Shown here: piece by piece, positions 35,152-62,475 of the stretch | How the letters are laid out: each line of letters starts with the position of its first letter | Position numbering within the stretch: the first letter of the stretch is position 1 | From: Chitinophagaceae bacterium LGM1 | GTDB taxonomy: Bacteria > Bacteroidota > Bacteroidia > Chitinophagales > Chitinophagaceae | Direction of reading: 5' to 3' | Length of the DNA stretch: 64,000 bases | Assembly: GCA_018604165.1 (NCBI GenBank) | Contig: CP075895.1 | Coordinates: 1,263,501-1,327,500 of the forward strand | Translations under genes and position numbers: made by a program | Notes under the pieces: model-generated | The model's database searches: none | Told to the model about the DNA's origin: nothing | Seen by the model: only the letters and a program-made list of their open reading frames with translations

Positions 35152-36558
35152 ATGGCGTATGATGTTATAGTTGTAGGTAGTGGCCCCGGTGGTTATGTAG
35201 CTGCTATCCGTGCTACACAATTGGGTTATAAAACGGCTATCGTAGAAAAAGAAAGCCTTGGCGGTATATGCCTCAACTGGGGTTGTATCCCTACCAAAGC
35301 ACTCATCAAGTCGGCACAGGTATTGGAGTATCTTTCTCATGCACAAGACTATGGTATCATAGCGGGCGAATCAAAAGCAGATTTCAATGCAGTCATTAAA
35401 CGCAGCCGTGGTGTTGCCGATAAAATGAGCAAGGGCATCCAGTTTTTGATGAAGAAGAACAAGATAGATGTGCTGATGGGTATGGGTAAACTGAATGCTA
35501 AGAAAGAAGTAGAAGTAACAGGTGCAGATGGCAAGACAACTGCCTACGCTGCTAAGCACGTAATACTGGCAACAGGTGGCCGCGCACGCCAACTGCCCAA
35601 CCTGCCTATAGATGGTAAGAAAATAATAGGCTACCGCGAGGCGATGAACCTGCCGACACAACCTAAGTCTATGATAGTAGTAGGTAGCGGTGCGATAGGT
35701 GTTGAGTTTGCGTACGTGTACAACAGCATGGGTACAAAAGTGACCATTGTAGAGTTTATGCCACGCATAGTGCCGGTAGAAGATGAAGATATATCGAAAG
35801 AACTGGAGAAGATATACAAGAAGAAAGGCATGACCATCATGACCAATGCTTCTGTAGAAAAAGTAGAAGCTAAAGGTGCAGGCGTGGTTGCCCATGTAAA
35901 AACGGCTGATGGCATGACTACGCTGGAAGCGGATGTAGTACTGAGCGCGGTGGGTGTATCTGCCAACATCGAAAACATAGGGCTGGAAACATTGGGTATC
36001 AAAACAGAAAAAGATAGGATAGTAGTAGATAAATACTACAATACCAATGTAGGTGGCGTCTATGCCATCGGCGACATAGTGCCCGGGCAGGCACTGGCGC
36101 ACGTAGCTATGAAAGAAGCGGTGATTTGCATTGAAGCCATTGCCAATAAAGAAGGTAAGTACCACCATGCACCAGAAGCGTTGGATTATAACAACGTACC
36201 GGGCTGTACATACTGCTCACCAGAAATAGCTTCTGTTGGTATGACAGAAAAGCAAGCTAAGGAAGCTGGTTACGAACTGAAAGTAGGTAAGTTCCCTTTC
36301 AGCGCATCGGGTAAGGCAAGTGCTGCAGGTGCCAACGAGGGTTTTGTAAAAGTAATTTTTGACGCTAAATATGGTGAATGGTTAGGCACACACATGATAG
36401 GTGCAAACGTTACCGAAATCATAGCACAAACAGTGGCAAGCCGCAAGCTGGAAACTACATGGCAGGAGCAGTTAGATACCATCTTCCCGCACCCGACTAT
36501 GAGCGAAGCGGTGAAAGATGCTATAGAAGTAGCACTGGGTGAGGCGATACATTTATAG
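35152..36558 (+). CDS. lpdA: Dihydrolipoyl dehydrogenase
   Basis: 468 residues. FAD-binding VVGSGPGGYVAA at 8-19, redox-active Cys40/Cys45 in GGICLNWGCIPTK, NAD-binding VVGSGAIGVEFA, and the catalytic His447-Glu452 pair in HPTMSEAV show a complete E3 enzyme that reoxidises dihydrolipoyl groups of pyruvate, 2-oxoglutarate and glycine cleavage complexes in the cytoplasm. A -7 TACATTTG lies at 35097-35104, about 48 bases upstream of the ATG, with a poor -33. Straight after the stop comes a TAGAAAGTAG-type repeat and then a strong terminator. Confidence 0.97.
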   Translation: MAYDVIVVGSGPGGYVAAIRATQLGYKTAIVEKESLGGICLNWGCIPTKALIKSAQVLEYLSHAQDYGIIAGESKADFNAVIKRSRGVADKMSKGIQFLMKKNKIDVLMGMGKLNAKKEVEVTGADGKTTAYAAKHVILATGGRARQLPNLPIDGKKIIGYREAMNLPTQPKSMIVVGSGAIGVEFAYVYNSMGTKVTIVEFMPRIVPVEDEDISKELEKIYKKKGMTIMTNASVEKVEAKGAGVVAHVKTADGMTTLEADVVLSAVGVSANIENIGLETLGIKTEKDRIVVDKYYNTNVGGVYAIGDIVPGQALAHVAMKEAVICIEAIANKEGKYHHAPEALDYNNVPGCTYCSPEIASVGMTEKQAKEAGYELKVGKFPFSASGKASAAGANEGFVKVIFDAKYGEWLGTHMIGANVTEIIAQTVASRKLETTWQEQLDTIFPHPTMSEAVKDAIEVALGEAIHL

Positions 36559-36585
36559 TAGAAAGTAGTAAGTAATAAGTAGTAA
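36555..36585. repeat. Solo copy of the S23-element end repeat (TATAGTAGAAAGTAG)
   Basis: TATAGTAGAAAGTAG is identical to 15 bases of the left inverted repeat that flanks the S23-type gene between rpoB and rpoC, and is followed by imperfect TAGTAAGTAATAAGTAGTAAG tandem repeats. It starts within the lpdA stop codon. No S23-like gene follows. Confidence 0.55.
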
Positions 36586-36598
36586 GATATAGGAATAC

Positions 36599-45725: not shown

Positions 45726-48700
45726 ATGGCTATACCGCAAAAACGAACTGCATCCGGCCGCGTTAACTTCGCGAAGATTCATGATGTTGCCGAAACACCT
45801 GATCTGCTGGGCATTCAGCTTCAATCGTTCCAGGATTTCTTCCAACTCGAAACCACGCCCGATAAGCGTGATAACGAGGGCTTGTTCCGTGTGTTTCAGG
45901 AAAACTTTCCTATTACAGACACACGCAACATCTTTGTGTTGGAATTTCTCGACTACTTTATTGACCCCCCACGCTACACCATCGAGGAGTGTATGGAGCG
46001 CGGCCTTACGTATTCAGTACCGCTGAAAGCAAAACTGAAACTAAGTTGTAATGATGAAGAACACGTTGACTTTGAAACCATCATACAAGATGTGTTTTTG
46101 GGCAACATCCCGTACATGACACCACGTGGTACATTCGTTATCAACGGTGCTGAGCGTGTGGTTGTATCACAGCTTCACCGTTCACCAGGTGTATTCTTCG
46201 GGCAGAGTGTTCACCCCAACGGTACTAAAATATACAGTGCCCGCGTGATACCTTTCAAAGGTGCATGGATGGAATTTGCTACGGACATCAACAATGTGAT
46301 GTACGCTTACATCGACCGTAAGAAAAAATTCCCTGTAACAACATTGCTCCGCGCCATAGGCTTTGAAACAGATAAGGACATCCTTGAACTGTTTGGCATG
46401 GCAGACGAAGTGAAAACAGATAAGAAAACATTAGCTAATCACATAGGTCGCCGTTTGGCTGCCCGTGTATTGCGTACATGGACGGAAGACTTCGTAGATG
46501 AAGATACAGGCGAGGTAGTAACCATCGAACGTAACGAGGTGGTGCTTGACCGTGATAATGTATTGGATGAAGAAAACGCGTCTATGATACAGGAAATGGG
46601 TATCCCTACCGTGTTCCTGCAAAAAGAAGAAGTAAGCGGCGATTTCTCTATCATCTACAACACTTTAAATAAAGATACTTCAAACAGTGAACTGGAAGCC
46701 GTTCAGCACATCTACCGCCAATTGCGTGGTTCGGATGCGCCGGATGATGAAACAGCGCGCGGTATCATAGAGAAATTGTTCTTTAGTGATAAGCGTTATG
46801 ATTTGGGCGAAGTAGGCCGTTACAAAATCAATCGCAAATTAGGGTTGGATATCAACCTCAATACAAAAGTATTGAGCAAAGAAGATATCATCTCTATTAT
46901 TAAATATCTGGTTCGCCTTACAAATGGTAAAGCAGAGATTGATGATATTGACCACTTGAGCAACCGCCGTGTACGTACGGTAGGCGAGCAGTTGTTCGCA
47001 CAGTTTGGTGTAGGTTTGGCACGTATGGCACGTACCATCCGCGAGCGTATGAATGTGCGTGACAATGAGGTGTTTACACCAATAGACCTGATTAACGCAC
47101 GTACACTGTCTTCAGTTATCAACTCGTTCTTCGGTACATCGCAACTGTCTCAGTTCCTCGACCAAACCAATCCGTTGTCGGAAATAACGCACAAGCGTCG
47201 TATATCTGCCCTCGGCCCTGGCGGTCTTAGCCGTGAGCGTGCAGGCTTTGAGGTGCGCGACGTACACTATAGCCACTATGGTCGTTTGTGTACTATCGAA
47301 ACACCGGAAGGTCCGAACATCGGTCTTATATCTACACTTTGCGTACACGCCAAGATTAATGATATGGGCTTTATCGAAACGCCTTACCGTAAGGTGAAAG
47401 AAGGTAAAGTTGACCTGAAACATCATCACTACCTGAGTGCGGAAGAAGAAGACGAAGCGAAGATTGCACAGGCAAACGTGCCACTGGATGAGAAAGGACA
47501 CTTTGTAGAAGATAAAATCAAATCGCGCCAAACGGGTGATTTCCCGATACTGGAGCGTGAAGATGTAGAATTCATGGACGTAGCACCTAACCAGATTGTT
47601 GGTTTGAGTGCGTCACTGATTCCGTTCCTTGAGCATGACGATGCCAACCGTGCCCTGATGGGTTCGAACATGCAACGTCAGGCAGTACCGCTTATCCGTC
47701 CGCAAGTGCCTATAGTAGGTACAGGTTTGGAAGCGAAAGCAGCACGCGATGCACGTATTCAGATACATGCAGAAGGTAATGGTGTGGTAGAGTATGTAGA
47801 TGCCAACCAGATACATGTACGCTACGACAGGAGCGAAACGGCTCGCCTTGTATCGTTTGAAGACGACCTGAAAGTATATACACTTACTAAGTATAAGAAA
47901 ACCAACCAAAGCACCAGCATCACACTAAGGCCAAGCGTAAAAGTAGGACAGAAAGTGAAAGAGGGCGACTTCCTGACAGAAGGCTACGCTACGAAAGATG
48001 GTGAATTGGCACTGGGCAGAAACCTGAAAGTGGCATTCATGCCTTGGAAGGGTTACAACTTTGAGGATGCCATTGTTATCAACGAGAAAGTAGTACGCGA
48101 TGACCTGTTTACATCAATCCACATTGATGAATATGAACTGGAAGTACGTGATACAAAATTAGGCGAAGAAGAGCTGACACCGGATATACCAAACGTATCG
48201 GAAGAGGCTACAAAAGACCTTGACGAGAACGGTATCATACGCATAGGTGCACACGTAGGCGAGGGCGACATACTGATAGGTAAAATAACACCTAAAGGTG
48301 AAACAGACCCGACACCAGAAGAAAAACTGTTGCGCGCCATATTTGGTGATAAAGCAGGTGATGCAAAAGATGCATCGCTGAAAGCACCAAGCGGAACGGA
48401 AGGTATCGTTATTGACAAGCAATTATTCCAACGTGCTAAGAAGGACAAGAATTCTAAAGTTCGTGAAAAAGCACAACTGGAAAAAATAGACAAGGTACAC
48501 GAGAAAAACCTCGAAGACCTGAAGACTTTGTTGATGGATAAGTTGATGACTTTGTTGAAAGACAAAACATCTACAGGTATCACCAACAACTTCGGCGAAC
48601 TGGTACTGAGCAAAGGCGGTAAATTCAATTCAAAAACATTGGGTTCTCTCGACTTCCAGAACGTTAACCCGTTGAACTGGACAGGCGATAAGTCAACCGA

Positions 48701-49538
48701 TGATTTGATAAACCAACTGTTGCACAACTACAATATCAAATTCAACGAAGAGCTGGGACGCTACAAGCGCGAGAAGTTCAACCTGAGCATTGGTGATGAA
48801 TTGCCTGCAGGTGTGTTGAAGCTGGCTAAAGTATATCTGGCAAGTAAGCGTAAGCTGAAAGTGGGTGATAAGATGGCGGGTCGCCACGGTAACAAAGGTA
48901 TCGTAGCGAAGATAGTGCGTGATGAAGACATGCCGTTCCTGGAAGATGGTACGCCTGTTGACATCGTACTGAACCCGCTGGGTGTACCGAGCCGTATGAA
49001 CCTCGGACAGATTTATGAAACCATCCTCGGTTGGGCAGGTGAGAAGTTGGGTGTGAAGTTTGCAACGCCAATCTTTGACGGTGCTGCGGTAAGCGAAATA
49101 GATGAACTGATTAACAAAGCAGAGTTACCAAGCTTCGGGCATACTTATTTGTATGACGGTGAAACGGGCGAACGCTTCCACCAGAAAGCTACCGTTGGTA
49201 TCATCTATATGATTAAGCTGCACCACATGGTAGATGATAAGATGCACGCACGTTCTATCGGGCCATACAGCCTCATAACGCAACAGCCATTGGGTGGTAA
49301 AGCCCAGTTTGGTGGTCAGCGTTTCGGTGAGATGGAAGTATGGGCGTTGGAAGCATACGGCGCATCAAACATTCTGCAAGAGTTGCTGACACTGAAGTCG
49401 GATGATATTATGGGACGTGCTAAGACGTACGAAGCCATCGTAAAAGGTGACAACGTACCTAAGCCTGGCATACCGGAATCATTCAACGTATTGGTGAATG
49501 AACTTCGCGGGTTGGGTCTTGAGTTGAAATTTGAATAG
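45726..49538 (+). CDS. rpoB: RNA polymerase subunit beta
   Basis: 1270 residues, of normal Bacteroidota length. The rifampicin pocket region (near residue 470-500: [20 protein letters not shown], then [11 protein letters not shown]) has the wild-type Asp, His and Ser at the positions of E. coli 516, 526 and 531, so no classical resistance substitution is seen. Further landmarks are [21 protein letters not shown], the insertions [24 protein letters not shown] and [12 protein letters not shown], and the C-terminal [21 protein letters not shown]. An AAGGAG sequence occurs 14 bases before the ATG. Unlike the common order, rplL is not directly upstream; rpoB has its own promoter. Confidence 0.98.
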
Positions 49539-49551
49539 CAGTTCAGTAGAT

Positions 49552-49575
49552 AGTCTATAGTAGAAAGTAGAAAGT
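49552..49575 (+). repeat. Left inverted repeat of the S23-type element
   Basis: AGTCTATAGTAGAAAGTAGAAAGT (24 bases). Its reverse complement matches the right repeat (49930-49953) in 22 of 24 positions. Confidence 0.8.
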
Positions 49576-49582
49576 TCTTTGA

Positions 49583-49930
49583 ATGAATAATTTTAGGGAG
49601 TTGGTGGTTTGGCAAAAATCGGTAGCACTTGTTACAGAAATTTACAAAGGCACCAAACTATTCCCTGATAACGAAAAGTTTAATCTTGTAACACAAATGC
49701 AACGTGCAGCTACATCAATAGCCAGCAATATTGCAGAGGGTTCAGGAAGAAACTCTTCAGCTATGTTCAAACAGTTTCTTACAATCTCGTTAGGCTCTGC
49801 TTATGAATTGGAAACACAAATAATTATTAGTAACAAACTTTTTTATATAAACGATGAATATTGTAGTGAATTAATAAAGTCAGTTCAGGAAATACAAAAG
49901 ATGATTTACGGACTGTATAATTCAATATGA
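49583..49930 (+). CDS. Four-helix-bundle protein, S23 ribosomal intervening-sequence family
   Basis: 115 residues. The start MNNFRELVVWQKSVALVTEIYKGTKLFP and the middle LVTQMQRAATSIASNIAEGSGRNSSAMFKQFLTISLGSAYELETQI are hallmark sequences of the S23/IVS-encoded four-helix-bundle family (bIVSP), first met in intervening sequences of 23S rRNA genes and common as stand-alone genes in Bacteroidota. Its biochemical role is unclear. Here it lies between rpoB and rpoC in the same direction, and 24-base imperfect inverted repeats begin eight bases before its ATG and at the last base of its stop codon. Function unknown. Confidence 0.92.
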   Translation: MNNFRELVVWQKSVALVTEIYKGTKLFPDNEKFNLVTQMQRAATSIASNIAEGSGRNSSAMFKQFLTISLGSAYELETQIIISNKLFYINDEYCSELIKSVQEIQKMIYGLYNSI

Positions 49931-49953
49931 CTTTCTACTTTATACTAAAGACT
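49930..49953 (+). repeat. Right inverted repeat of the S23-type element
   Basis: ACTTTCTACTTTATACTAAAGACT (24 bases), starting in the stop codon of the S23-type gene and ending 19 bases before the rpoC ATG. Confidence 0.8.
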
Positions 49954-49972
49954 TAATACTATTTATAATATT

Positions 49973-52900
49973 ATGGCAATAAAGAAAGATAACCGCCCAA
50001 AAGCGGGATTCGGAAAGATCACCATCAGTCTTGCTTCTCCTGATACGATACTTGACCGTTCGTATGGCGAAGTGTTGAAGCCTGAAACCATTAACTACCG
50101 TACTTACAAACCAGAACGTGATGGTTTGTTTTGCGAAAAAATATTCGGCCCTGTAAAGGATTACGAATGTTATTGCGGTAAGTATAAGCGTATCCGTTAC
50201 AAGGGTATTGTGTGCGATCGTTGCGGTGTGGAAGTAACAGAAAAGAAAGTACGCCGTGAGCGTTTAGGCCACATCAAATTAGTGGTGCCTATCGTACATA
50301 TATGGTACTTCAAGAGCTTGCCAAACAAAATAGGTTATTTGTTGGGTAGCAGCTCTAAAAAGCTGGAAAGCATCGTGTACTACGAGCGTTATGTAGTAGT
50401 ACAGGCTGGTGAGGCAGAAGACCTGATACGTCAGAAGCTGAACCTGAAAGATTCAGAAAACACGTATCTGCAACTGCTGACGGAAGATGAGTATCTGGAA
50501 ATATTGGATAGTATATCTAAAGATAACCATCACCTGTCTGATGAAGACCCGAATAAATTCATCGCTAAGATGGGTGCAGAGGCTGTACACTCACTGTTGA
50601 GCCGTATAGACCTCGACCAGTTGTCTTACGACTTGCGTAATGCTGCTGCCAACGAAACATCTCAACAACGTAAGCAGGAAGCCCTGAAACGCCTGAGCGT
50701 AGTAGAAGCTTTCCGCGATGCGAATACAAGGGTAGAGAACAGGCTGGAATGGACTGTAATGCAGTACATACCTGTAATACCACCAGAGTTGCGCCCGTTA
50801 GTGCCATTGGATGGCGGACGTTTCGCATCTTCTGACTTGAACGATTTGTATCGTCGTGTTATTATACGTAACAACCGTTTGAAACGCCTGATAGAAATTA
50901 AAGCACCGGAAGTTATCCTGCGTAACGAAAAACGTATGTTGCAGGAAGCGGTTGACTCGCTGTTTGATAACAGCCGTAAGTCGAACGCGGTGAAGGCTGA
51001 GGGTGGACGTGCGCTGAAATCACTATCAGACGTACTGAAAGGTAAGCAAGGTCGTTTCCGTCAGAACCTGTTGGGTAAACGTGTTGACTATTCTGGTCGT
51101 TCGGTTATCGTGGTAGGTCCTGAAATGAAATTGCATGAGTGTGGTTTGCCAAAAGATATGGCGGCAGAATTGTTCAAGCCGTTCATCATCCGCAAACTGA
51201 TAGAAAGAGGTATCGTAAAAACAGTAAAGAGCGCGAAGAAATTAGTAGAGCGCAAAGAAGCTGTTGTTTGGGATATATTGGAGAATGTACTGAAAGGACA
51301 CCCCGTATTACTAAACCGTGCCCCAACGCTCCACCGTCTGTCAATACAGGCATTCCAGCCTAAGCTGATAGAAGGTAAAGCGATACAACTGCACCCGTTG
51401 GTGTGTTCTGCCTTCAACGCCGACTTTGACGGTGACCAGATGGCGGTACACGTACCACTAAGCAGTGCTGCTATATTGGAAGCACAGGTACTGATGCTGG
51501 CTTCTCACAACATTCTGAATCCGCAAAACGGTACACCCATCACCCTGCCTTCACAGGACATGGTACTTGGCCTGTACTACATCAGCAAGGGTAAACGCAA
51601 CCTGCCAAACGACCCTGTAAAGGGTGAAGGCATGGCGTTCTACAGCCCCGAAGAAGTAATGATTGCCTACAACGAAGGCCGTGTTGATTTGCATGCGTAC
51701 ATCAAAGTGAAAGTGGATACACTGAACAAAGAAGGACAATTGCAAAAACAACTGTTGGAAACAACGGTAGGCCGTGTCATATTCAACCAGTTTGTACCGA
51801 AAGAAAGTGGTTTCGTAAACGCATTGCTGACTAAAAAGTCTTTGCGCGAAATCATCGGCGATATCCTGAAAAATGCAGGTATCCCTAAAACGGTACAATT
51901 CCTCGACGATATTAAAACACTTGGTTTCCGTACTGCCTTCCGTGGTGGTTTGTCGTTCAACATCAACGACCTGACAGTACCTGATGTGAAAGAAGCATTG
52001 GTAGAAGCAGCACAGGGCGAAGTGGACGAAGTGTGGGAAAACTACAACATGGGCTTGATTACCAACAACGAGCGTTACAACCAGATAATTGACATCTGGT
52101 CGCGCGTGGATACCCGTGTTACAGAAACGCTGATACGCGAGATGGCAAGTGATAAACAAGGTTTCAACTCTGTTTACATGATGCTGGACTCTGGTGCGCG
52201 TGGTTCTAAACAACAGGTAAAACAGTTGGCTGGTTTGAGGGGCTTGATGGCTAAACCACGCCGTAGTGGTTCTTCAGGTTCTGAAATCATTGAAAACCCA
52301 ATCTTGTCAAACTTCAAAACAGGTTTGTCGGTATTGGAATACTTCATATCTACGCACGGTGCGCGTAAAGGTCTGGCAGATACCGCCCTTAAAACAGCGG
52401 ATGCGGGTTACCTGACACGCCGTCTGGTAGACGTGGCGCAAGATGTGGTTATCAATGAAGAAGATTGCGGTACACTGCGTGGTATTGCAACATCTGCCCT
52501 GAAAGACAACGAAGAAATAGTAGAGCCGTTGTATGACCGTATCCTCGGCCGTACTTCTCTGCACGATGTGTACGACCCCATAAGCGACGAGCTGTTGGTG
52601 TCTGCAGGTGGAGAAATAACACAAGATGTAGCACAACGTATAGAAGACAGCGCGATAGATACGGTAGAAATACGCTCGGTACTTACTTGCGAAGCCCGCC
52701 GTGGTGTATGCTCTAAGTGCTATGGTAAAAACCTTGCTACTGGCTATATGACACAGAAAGGTGATGCGGTAGGTATCATCGCTGCACAGTCTATCGGTGA
52801 GCCGGGTACACAGCTTACGCTCCGTACCTTCCACGTGGGTGGTGTGGCTGGTTCTTCTGCTATCGAATCTATGTTGGCTGCTAAGTTTGACGGTACAGTA

Positions 52901-54295
52901 CAGTTCGACGGTTTGCGTACTACAACATTTACAGATGCTGAAGGCGAAACCATCAATGTGGTAATAGGCCGTACGGGCGAAATGCGTATTGTGGACGTTG
53001 CCAACGACCGCTTGCTGATAACTAACAATATACCTTACGGTTCTCACCTGAAAGTGAAGAACGGACAGAAAGTAACCAAAGGTGATGTTATCTGTACTTG
53101 GGACCCGTTCAACGCCGTTATCGTTTCTGAACTGAATGGTAAAATACGCCTTGAGAACGTAATAGAAGGTATCACGTACCGCGAAGAAGCCGACGAACAA
53201 ACAGGCCATCGCGAAAAAGTGGTTATTGAAACCAAAGACAAAACAAAAATACCTGCCATCGGTGTAGTTGGTAAGGAAGAAAAATCATACAACCTGCCTG
53301 TAGGCTCGCACATCATCGTTGCAGATGGTGATGCTGTAAACAGCGGACAGGTGATAGTGAAGATACCACGTATCATGGGCCGTAGCCGAGATATCACGGG
53401 TGGTCTGCCGCGTGTAACGGAACTGTTTGAAGCACGTAACCCGAGCAACCCTGCTATAGTAGCAGAGATAGACGGTGTGGTAACATTCGGTAACGTAAAA
53501 CGTGGTAACCGCGAAATAATCGTAGAATCTCGCGAAGGTTTGGTGAAGAAATACTTAGTGCCACTTACGCGCCACATCATGGTGCAGGATGGCGACTTTG
53601 TGAAAGCAGGTACTTCACTGTCTGACGGTGCAGTAACACCGGGCGACATCCTTGCCATCAAAGGTCCGTTTGCCGTACAGGAATACTTGGTGAACGAGAT
53701 ACAAGAGGTATATCGCTTGCAGGGTGTGAAGATAAATGACAAACACATTGAGGTGATAGTACGCCAGATGATGCGTAAAGTAACTATTGTTGACCCGGGT
53801 GATACTAAATTCCTGGAAGATGATACAGTTGATAAATTCGACTTCATGGTTGAAAACGACTGGATATTTGACAAGAAAGTAGTAACCGAAGCGGGCGACT
53901 CTGACAAGCTGCACCCTGGTCAAATCGTTACCCTGCGCGAGATACGTGAAGAAAACAGTATGCTGCGCCGTAATGATAAGAAAGTAGTAGAGTATCGCGA
54001 TGCCGCGCCTGCTACCTCTGCGCCATTGCTGTTGGGTATTACCAAAGCATCGTTGGGTACACAAAGCTGGATATCTGCCGCGTCTTTCCAGGAAACTACG
54101 AAGGTACTTTCTCAAGCCGCTATCAACGGTAAGAGCGATAACCTGATGGGCTTGAAGGAGAACGTTATCACAGGTAATCTGATACCAGCGGGTACGGGTA
54201 TGCGCGACTTTGAAGACATTGTAGTAGGCTCTAAAGAAGAGTTCGACCTGCTGATGGCTAACCGCGATGTACTACAGTTTGACGAAGAAGAATAG
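49973..54295 (+). CDS. rpoC: RNA polymerase subunit beta'
   Basis: 1440 residues. N-terminal zinc ribbon [20 protein letters not shown]; catalytic Mg-binding [15 protein letters not shown] near residue 482; bridge-helix/trigger-loop region with [16 protein letters not shown] and [18 protein letters not shown]; second zinc cluster with [11 protein letters not shown] and SKCYG (residues ~830-920). It completes the core enzyme with RpoB. rpoB and rpoC are normally nearly contiguous; here the 434-base gap is occupied by the S23-type element. Confidence 0.98.
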
Positions 54296-62084: not shown

Positions 62085-62441
62085 ATGAAAAAGACAATCA
62101 TTGTTGCTTGTGTGATGGCATTTTTGGGTGGTATATTTTCACTATTCATGTCGGGCTTGTGGATAGCAGCCGTGTTGCCATTTATTGTTACCGTTAGTAT
62201 GCAGGTAAAAGGCAGGCAAGGATTTGGTTTGGGCTTTTTGGGTATAGCACTATTATGGCTTGTGTTGATACTATTGAAAGACGTACCCAACCATCATATA
62301 CTATCAACCCGTATGGCTGGGCTGTTAAGTTTGCCCAATGCTGCATTGTTTATACTCGTCAATGTATTTTTAGGTGGATTGATTGGCGGACTATCAGGGT
62401 GGAGTGGAGCAGTAATGAACAAGGCGTTTAGGAAATCATGA
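62085..62441 (+). CDS. Small membrane protein, unknown
   Basis: 118 residues with four hydrophobic spans and a Lys-Gly-Arg-Gln loop after the second. The frame begins four bases after the acylase stop, suggesting translational coupling. I recognise no family; the protein is hydrophobic and glycine-rich with no catalytic motif. Confidence 0.7.
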   Translation: MKKTIIVACVMAFLGGIFSLFMSGLWIAAVLPFIVTVSMQVKGRQGFGLGFLGIALLWLVLILLKDVPNHHILSTRMAGLLSLPNAALFILVNVFLGGLIGGLSGWSGAVMNKAFRKS

Positions 62442-62475
62442 TTTTTCTTTTTTACTTTTTACTTTTGAATTTGCA

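Follow-up and report, generated by a model that had tools for sequence, protein, structure and literature searches.

The S23-type gene that lies between rpoB and rpoC in Chitinophagaceae bacterium LGM1 is framed by two mutually inverted arrays of tandem heptads. Many of its relatives have this layout, each with a repeat word of its own, and such words are also dispersed through the same genomes, so the gene and its repeats appear to form a single genetic element. We consider it somewhat more likely than not that the unit in the window (the whole stretch of 64,000 nucleotides that was analysed) represents a widespread repeat-plus-protein element, with inverted 7- or 8-nt arrays as its ends and S23 as its sole gene.

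Anatomy of the S23 unit between rpoB and rpoC

The sequence-only reading had described a gene of S23 (four-helix-bundle) type that is framed by 24-base imperfect inverted repeats, one lying 7 bases before the ATG and the other starting in the stop codon, and that sits between rpoB and rpoC in the same direction. All of this was confirmed. Profile searches placed the product in PF05635 (E 4.1e-38, 130 bits) and TIGR02436 (E 3e-36, 123.9 bits against a cut-off of 24), and it matched the solved relative 2gsc_A (E 9.8e-20), while the open reading frames and RNA polymerase domains put all three genes on one strand (Table 1). The two arms match at 22 of 24 positions in their core (49552-49575 vs 49930-49953) and at 26 of 31 when extended (49545-49575 vs 49930-49960), with 7 nt from the end of the 5′ arm to the ATG and the last base of the stop codon opening the 3′ arm. 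The heptad make-up of the arms had been missed by that reading; both are built of degenerate tandem AGTNNNA heptads (AGTAGAA AGTAGAA AGT and ACT TTCTACT TTATACT, respectively). When two arms of this geometry were placed at random in the window 20,000 times, five placements equalled the arm score, and these five may be the real place itself. The predicted RNA fold of the unit (-103 kcal/mol, z -4.0) paired the arms with each other, and an Rfam scan of 49400-50100 returned nothing beyond one chance match (E 0.81). A further single period-7 array, of another unit (TTTTTACTTTTTACTTTTGAATTTG), lies at 62436-62475 of the window.

Table 1. Coordinates of the S23 unit, its neighbours and an S23-less array in the window
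Feature	Position	Strand	Description
S23-less array, AGTNNNA unit	36551..36594	+	overlaps the end of ORF 35152-36558
rpoB	45726..49538	+	upstream neighbour; ORF and RNA_pol_Rpb2 domains
5′ arm AGTAGAT AGTCTAT AGTAGAA AGTAGAA AGT	49545..49575	+	tandem heptads; inverted repeat I1, period-7 array
S23 / four-helix-bundle gene, 115 aa	49583..49930	+	PF05635, TIGR02436
3′ arm ACTTTCTACTTTATACTAAAGACTTAATACT	49930..49960	+	complement of the 5′ arm in register; inverted repeat
rpoC	49973..54295	+	downstream neighbour; ORF and RNA_pol_Rpb1 domains

Inverted arms are common at S23 loci

The S23 family was present in 46 of the 59 genomes searched. The window's own genome holds five S23 genes, each of them between flanks that can be aligned to one another as inverted repeats (scores 30-46), with units that mostly differ from gene to gene. 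One S23 of this genome (L005, at 243856) has an in-frame TGA, retains its inverted flanks and precedes a nuoG-like gene, and another S23 (L003) lies ahead of a nuoL-like gene, both neighbours being named by eye. Strong arms, defined by a flank-to-flank inverted alignment score of at least 30, were found at 58 of 90 S23 loci of the same order, as against 1.2% of cross-paired flanks from different genes and 2 of 76 neighbour ORFs. In a later set 16 of 40 S23 loci were armed (cross-paired control 0.4%), and among 25 named S23 loci from GTDB genomes 14 were armed with a control of 11%, the latter because many named loci have one unit class in common; 32, 24 and 11 loci of the three sets, respectively, fell under the threshold. 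Strong periodicity was detected in 58 of 180 S23 flanks (period 7 in 35, period 14 in 10, period 8 in 12 and period 12 in one) and in 20 of 152 neighbour-ORF flanks (period 7 in 11), some of which overlap S23 arms.

The units of S23 arms are 7 or 8 nt long, equal in both arms of one locus and unlike between loci. When the units of one arm were shuffled at the 90 loci that have sufficient units, on average 18.6% of shuffles matched the other arm at least as well, and the mirrored register of 44 of the 90 loci was better than 90% of the shuffles. Arm polarity was also biased: at 98 S23 loci, G exceeded C in the 5′ arm of 77 and C exceeded G in 14. L004, L078 and L074 share an orthologous site, and the L004 protein has 63-64% identity to the other two, yet both L004 arms carry another unit; the mean arm match within a locus was 54 for L004 and L074, and the match of the same arm across the two was 18. 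Among 47 same-site pairs of at least 45% identity, arm similarity within the locus exceeded that between orthologues in 28. Concerted change of the two arms is thus seen sometimes and is not universal, the reverse order being naturally shown by close relatives.

Arm words are dispersed through S23-bearing genomes

The expectation that the repeats would recur at other places in the genome was borne out. The own genome (3.32 Mb, one contig) contains 58 sites like AGTAGAAAGTAGAAAGT vs 3 for the reversed pattern, when at most 2 mismatches are allowed and each overlapping hit is counted. The two arms of the window S23 account for two of these sites, and among 16 AGTAGAAAGTAGAAAGT-like stretches inspected several more form inverted pairs that enclose a short loop without S23. 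For other genomes, units were predicted from S23 arms for named genomes, and these predictions were fixed ahead of the genome searches. The word GTTCACNN, predicted for G018 and G021, ranked these first and second of 59 genomes (72 and 43 hits), with 6 hits in the next-highest genome and zero in 53 of the 59. TCGTGAA, predicted for G017, G027 and G023, placed them at ranks 1, 2 and 5 of 59 (895, 316 and 56 hits, respectively); it was low in G018 and G022 (5 and 1 hits), which had been put down as "maybe", and high in three unpredicted genomes (G035, 253; G030, 95; G021, 48). For GTTGAYNN, exemplified by the S23 array GTTGATNN and searched in 35 genomes, each of the six top-ranked genomes has an S23 with a GTTGAYNN arm, four of them having been named beforehand as loci, and the arm of one, G044, is weak (score 19). 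The reversed-pattern control for this word was not negligible (28 in G044, 21 in G018), and G005 and G012 gave 43 and 24 hits without any S23 hit. AGTAGAA hits were found in G017 (84), G000 (58) and G006 (41), yet the single S23 of the AGTAGAA-rich G006 carries a different unit.

A scan of 20-kb samples for arrays of periods 5 to 13, with no motif given, detected 91 period-7/8 arrays in 700 kb of 12 S23-bearing genomes (~13 per 100 kb) vs 1 in 418 kb of 9 S23-free genomes (0.24 per 100 kb), and the seven other periods were rare in S23-bearing and S23-free samples alike. The excess was uneven, with 54 of the 91 arrays from G023 and 17 from G035, and no period-7/8 array turned up in the samples from five of the 12 (G006, G043, G009, G013 and G014). 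The dispersed arrays resembled the S23 arms of their own genomes (similarity 0.51 vs 0.32 with permuted labels, p 0.0002); a cosine above 0.5 to own S23 arms was reached by 31 of 54 arrays in G023, 3 of 3 in G000, 4 of 17 in G035 and 0 of 7 in G018.

Inverted pairs lacking S23 shared a fixed polarity. Among 28 such pairs in the samples of five genomes, the left arm was G-rich in 26, two were ties and none was reversed; their median loop was 73 nt, and single partnerless arrays also occurred. The array sites comprised 50 co-directional, 13 convergent and 15 divergent gaps, besides 5 inside ORFs and 11 at stretch ends, proportions much like those of background gaps (112 co-directional, 36 convergent and 36 divergent). 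The occurrence of S23-less arrays in all gap orientations at about the background frequency favours a spread as DNA that does not depend on transcription.

The repeat unit tracks S23 relatedness

Among 98 armed loci, which occupy 61 sites, the more alike two S23 proteins are, the more alike their arms tend to be in 4-mer content (4669 different-site pairs, r 0.212); this value lies beyond the Mantel permutations (sd 0.027, maximum of 2000 equal to 0.102, p 0.0005). The correlation was r 0.20 over 4386 pairs between genera and r 0.18 when arm G+C was controlled; genera are approximate here, the own genus being pooled and each other genome or named locus taken as a separate genus, so that the congeneric G038 and G058, and probably some named MAGs, were counted as distinct. 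A unit common to both members (cosine above 0.4) was found in 30% of 77 pairs of at least 0.5 identity vs 2.6% of 2819 pairs below 0.3. Reverse-complement units among related S23s, a comparison prompted by L105 and L028, gave no significant overall correlation (r 0.033, p 0.15).

The 14 named relatives nearest to the window S23 (L251-L264, 50-69% identity), which range from Chitinophagaceae to Bacteroidales MAGs, carry AGTNNNN-type arms in 13 cases as judged by eye; in the exception, L259, the length of the S23 match is not divisible by three and the called ORF starts late. These 14 occupy about three sites: six lie between rpoB and rpoC, seven before an RND-type gene and one elsewhere. At such distances synonymous sites are near saturation (dS about 2 for L001-L251), and plain neutral inheritance of a retained unit is therefore unlikely, with repeated homogenisation as a possibility. 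The correlation between protein and unit is modest and could reflect co-descent of gene and arms, though units are alike at saturated dS.

S23 is conserved and co-oriented, and its sites are patchily occupied

In 10 of 12 S23 ortholog pairs tried, dN/dS was 0.04-0.19 (dS 0.13-2.6), indicating that the S23 protein is kept under purifying selection; of the two remaining pairs, L031-L033 was too close (0.50) and L030-L031 was saturated. Counting one armed S23 per site, 42 have the sense of both neighbours vs 2 the opposite sense; 14 further sites are in mixed gaps, and for 3 a neighbour was unread. Such a bias is expected if S23 relies on read-through. GxxExxY genes show a like bias (15 vs 2), and co-orientation is therefore not specific to the S23-array architecture.

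A patchy presence of the unit in the rpoB-rpoC gap, which the sequence-only reading had proposed to check, was recovered among relatives. The gap was read in 13 congeners (60-131 nt) and is free of S23 in every one, but six sister-clade MAGs have the gene there, so the rpoB-rpoC placement is not unique to the window. In a RpoB+RpoC tree of 31 of 36 loci, the window genome grouped with its S23-free congeners and not with the six S23-bearing MAGs, in whose clade one genome (L198) is S23-free as well; the distribution of S23 on this tree requires at least 3 changes. The MAG proteins are 62-69% identical to the window S23, and three of them are 73-81% identical to one another; besides gain, an old presence between rpoB and rpoC followed by several losses would also fit these identities.

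When S23-free rpoB-rpoC gaps were folded (six congeners of the L185-L199 group and G020), all seven formed hairpins, for which z ranged from -1.7 to -6.2 and stayed above -2.2 in three weak cases; the hairpins of the six congeners lie directly after rpoB and are unrelated in sequence, and the G020 gap (L202) contains an inverted ATGGTCC-like pair without S23. No rpoB was found within 1.5 kb upstream of rpoC at L203, L205, L206, L210 and L213 (G021, G023, G022, G037 and G050, respectively), where the rpoBC operon seems to be split and other ORFs lie upstream of rpoC. The window genome carries an AGT array ahead of carB; at this place inverted pairs built of other A-rich units were seen in 5 of 12 congeners, and in the remaining 7 no array was visible by eye. 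Site occupancy differs among congeners at both carB and rpoBC. The inverted heptad pairs, which vary among congeners (L324-L336), lie between the start of carB and a GC-rich hairpin.

Comparison with known repeat systems

The nearest anatomical counterparts of the window unit are the intervening sequences (IVSs) of 23S rRNA in Leptospira, Coxiella and others, which have in common a size of ~400-440 nt, a complementary stem of ~28-31 nt, an S23 ORF in the loop and a host transcript. A Coxiella element of 428-444 nt has been described whose 28-bp stem closes a loop containing an S23 ORF, the ORF being reported to undergo reductive evolution; the same source gives the function of S23p proteins as unknown and a solved S23 relative as a homopentamer (PMC4990558). 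The window unit likewise has complementary termini (26 of 31, paired in the fold) around an S23 ORF, but it differs in lying in a protein-coding operon, between rpoB and rpoC and outside any rRNA gene, in having tandem 7-nt arms, and in the strong purifying selection on S23 here, which contrasts with the reductively evolving Coxiella ORF (PMC4990558).

Co-evolution of the RAYT protein with the REPIN repeat has been stated (PMC3116915, PMC8266576). As in this REPIN/RAYT system (REPtron), a resident gene is accompanied here by a repeat with hairpin potential that is dispersed in the extragenic space of one genome as inverted doublets. In contrast, the framed gene is S23 and no cognate Y1/HUH transposase stands beside the repeat, the repeats are degenerate tandem 7-8-nt arrays instead of a REP palindrome, and several units occur per genome. 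Bacterial satellites have been surveyed in PMC6749651, and TAACTGA heptamer arrays, which are likewise tandem, intergenic and near start codons, were described from Beggiatoaceae, Cyanobacteria and some Bacteroidetes, with no mechanism of horizontal transfer evident in that account (PMC4679880). Those arrays have one fixed unit and are nearly always direct, whereas many units, in inverted order and linked to S23, are found here; the unit of the window arms is AGTNNNA, not TAACTGA, and the terms S23 and four helix are absent from the main text of PMC4679880. The bAvd-like profile PF22296 matched the window S23 below the profile cut-off (E 3.7e-4). S23 is presumably akin to the Avd and bAvd accessory proteins of diversity-generating retroelements, whose genes accompany a reverse transcriptase with TR/VR, but the neighbours of the window S23 are rpoB and rpoC and the unit holds no reverse transcriptase. 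Among the literature matches listed, mainly open-access papers, there was no report of S23 genes joined to inverted heptad arrays.

Weighing the explanations

The sequence-only reading had suggested that the repeats could pair in the mRNA and loop out the whole gene, and of this the anatomy stands, whereas the expected mark of RNA-stem selection in the mismatches does not appear. In 23S rRNA, RNase III excises the IVS and the ends are left unligated; in that account, likewise, the arms would pair in the rpoBC transcript, RNase III would cut, and the S23 message would be looped out or separated, with selection or tolerance acting at the RNA level. The unit matches described rRNA IVSs in anatomy and size, its fold pairs the arms (-103 kcal/mol, z -4.0), 42 armed sites vs 2 are co-directional with both flanking genes, and the seven folded S23-free rpoB-rpoC gaps all have hairpins (z -1.7 to -6.2). 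Selection on RNA pairing, assayed as G-U vs A-C mismatches, was nevertheless unsupported, because sense-strand G-U pairs were not in excess (126 kept vs 156 broken, p 0.08 in the other direction; 75 vs 104 in the first set, p 0.04, again the other way). The similar sense bias of GxxExxY genes (15 vs 2), the S23-less arrays in divergent and convergent gaps at about background frequency and the single arrays without a partner also argue against it, and we regard this explanation as unlikely, though RNA looping and recognition of the repeat by S23 could both hold.

An origin as a satellite by-product, in which slippage would generate the 7-8-nt arrays, template switching between near arms would make the mirror copies and S23 would be present by chance, appears improbable to us. 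Heptanucleotides did top the long simple repeats of most repeat-rich genomes in an earlier survey cited in PMC4679880, for which polymerase slippage was proposed, and the concerted difference of both arms in some orthologues (L004 vs L074/L078) is what quasi-palindrome correction would yield; but neighbour genes of the same loci lack such arms (2 of 76), the unit follows S23 relatedness across sites and genera, the polarity of S23-less pairs is fixed (26 to 0 with 2 ties) and samples of S23-free genomes are nearly free of arrays. We give equally little credence to the arrays being non-autonomous transposon copies moved by another cell enzyme, such as a Y1 (IS200/RAYT-like) transposase, S23 being a passenger. 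Inverted hairpin pairs dispersed in intergenic DNA are indeed REPIN-like and Y1 domains occur in 42 of the 59 genomes, but no Y1 was found in G002, G005 and G011, which have 67, 43 and 43 GTTGAYNN hits, and Y1 is present in the S23-free G016, G019, G028 and G029. A Y1/RAYT transposase was thus rejected as the mobiliser, since its presence does not follow the arrays.

For the repeat-plus-protein element, the best reading is a REPIN-like repeat family whose resident protein would be S23, with no transposase, and would act in trans. Hairpins that the unit forms in single-stranded DNA or in RNA would be what the cognate S23 recognises, and this recognition would help the arrays to persist or to be copied in trans, in the manner proposed for RAYT and REPIN but with no nuclease belonging to S23. 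By the same analogy, S23-less arrays would be dependants of the resident S23 protein. The S23 copy itself would be expressed through read-through of the host operon, here rpoBC, and IVS-style excision of the loop from mRNA may be a side effect. More tentatively, and with the odds somewhat against it, S23 may be the missing partner of one class of intergenic heptad and octad repeats in bacteria, the pairing of each S23 clade with its own word in inverted arrays maintaining a novel selfish or domesticated element that spreads nuclease-free and for which the rRNA IVS would be one specialised habitat. If so, rRNA intervening sequences and dispersed heptad hairpins would belong to one element family, represented here between rpoB and rpoC, and intergenic heptamer arrays would be offered a partner in S23. 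The pairing of S23 clades with particular words makes the binding target of the protein open to a direct biochemical test.

Other gene families with inverted flanks

Two further gene families were evaluated as candidates and rejected. Among DUF559 genes (L155-L184), 3 of 16 short genes had strong inverted flanks, which are CCCCTCC-like palindromes and not heptads. Among GxxExxY genes (L125-L154, TIGR04256), 11 of 27 had inverted flanks without a period-7 signal, several of them with an octad-like word (CGCAAAGA / CGCTAAGG); GxxExxY may be another gene family that has a repeat word to itself.
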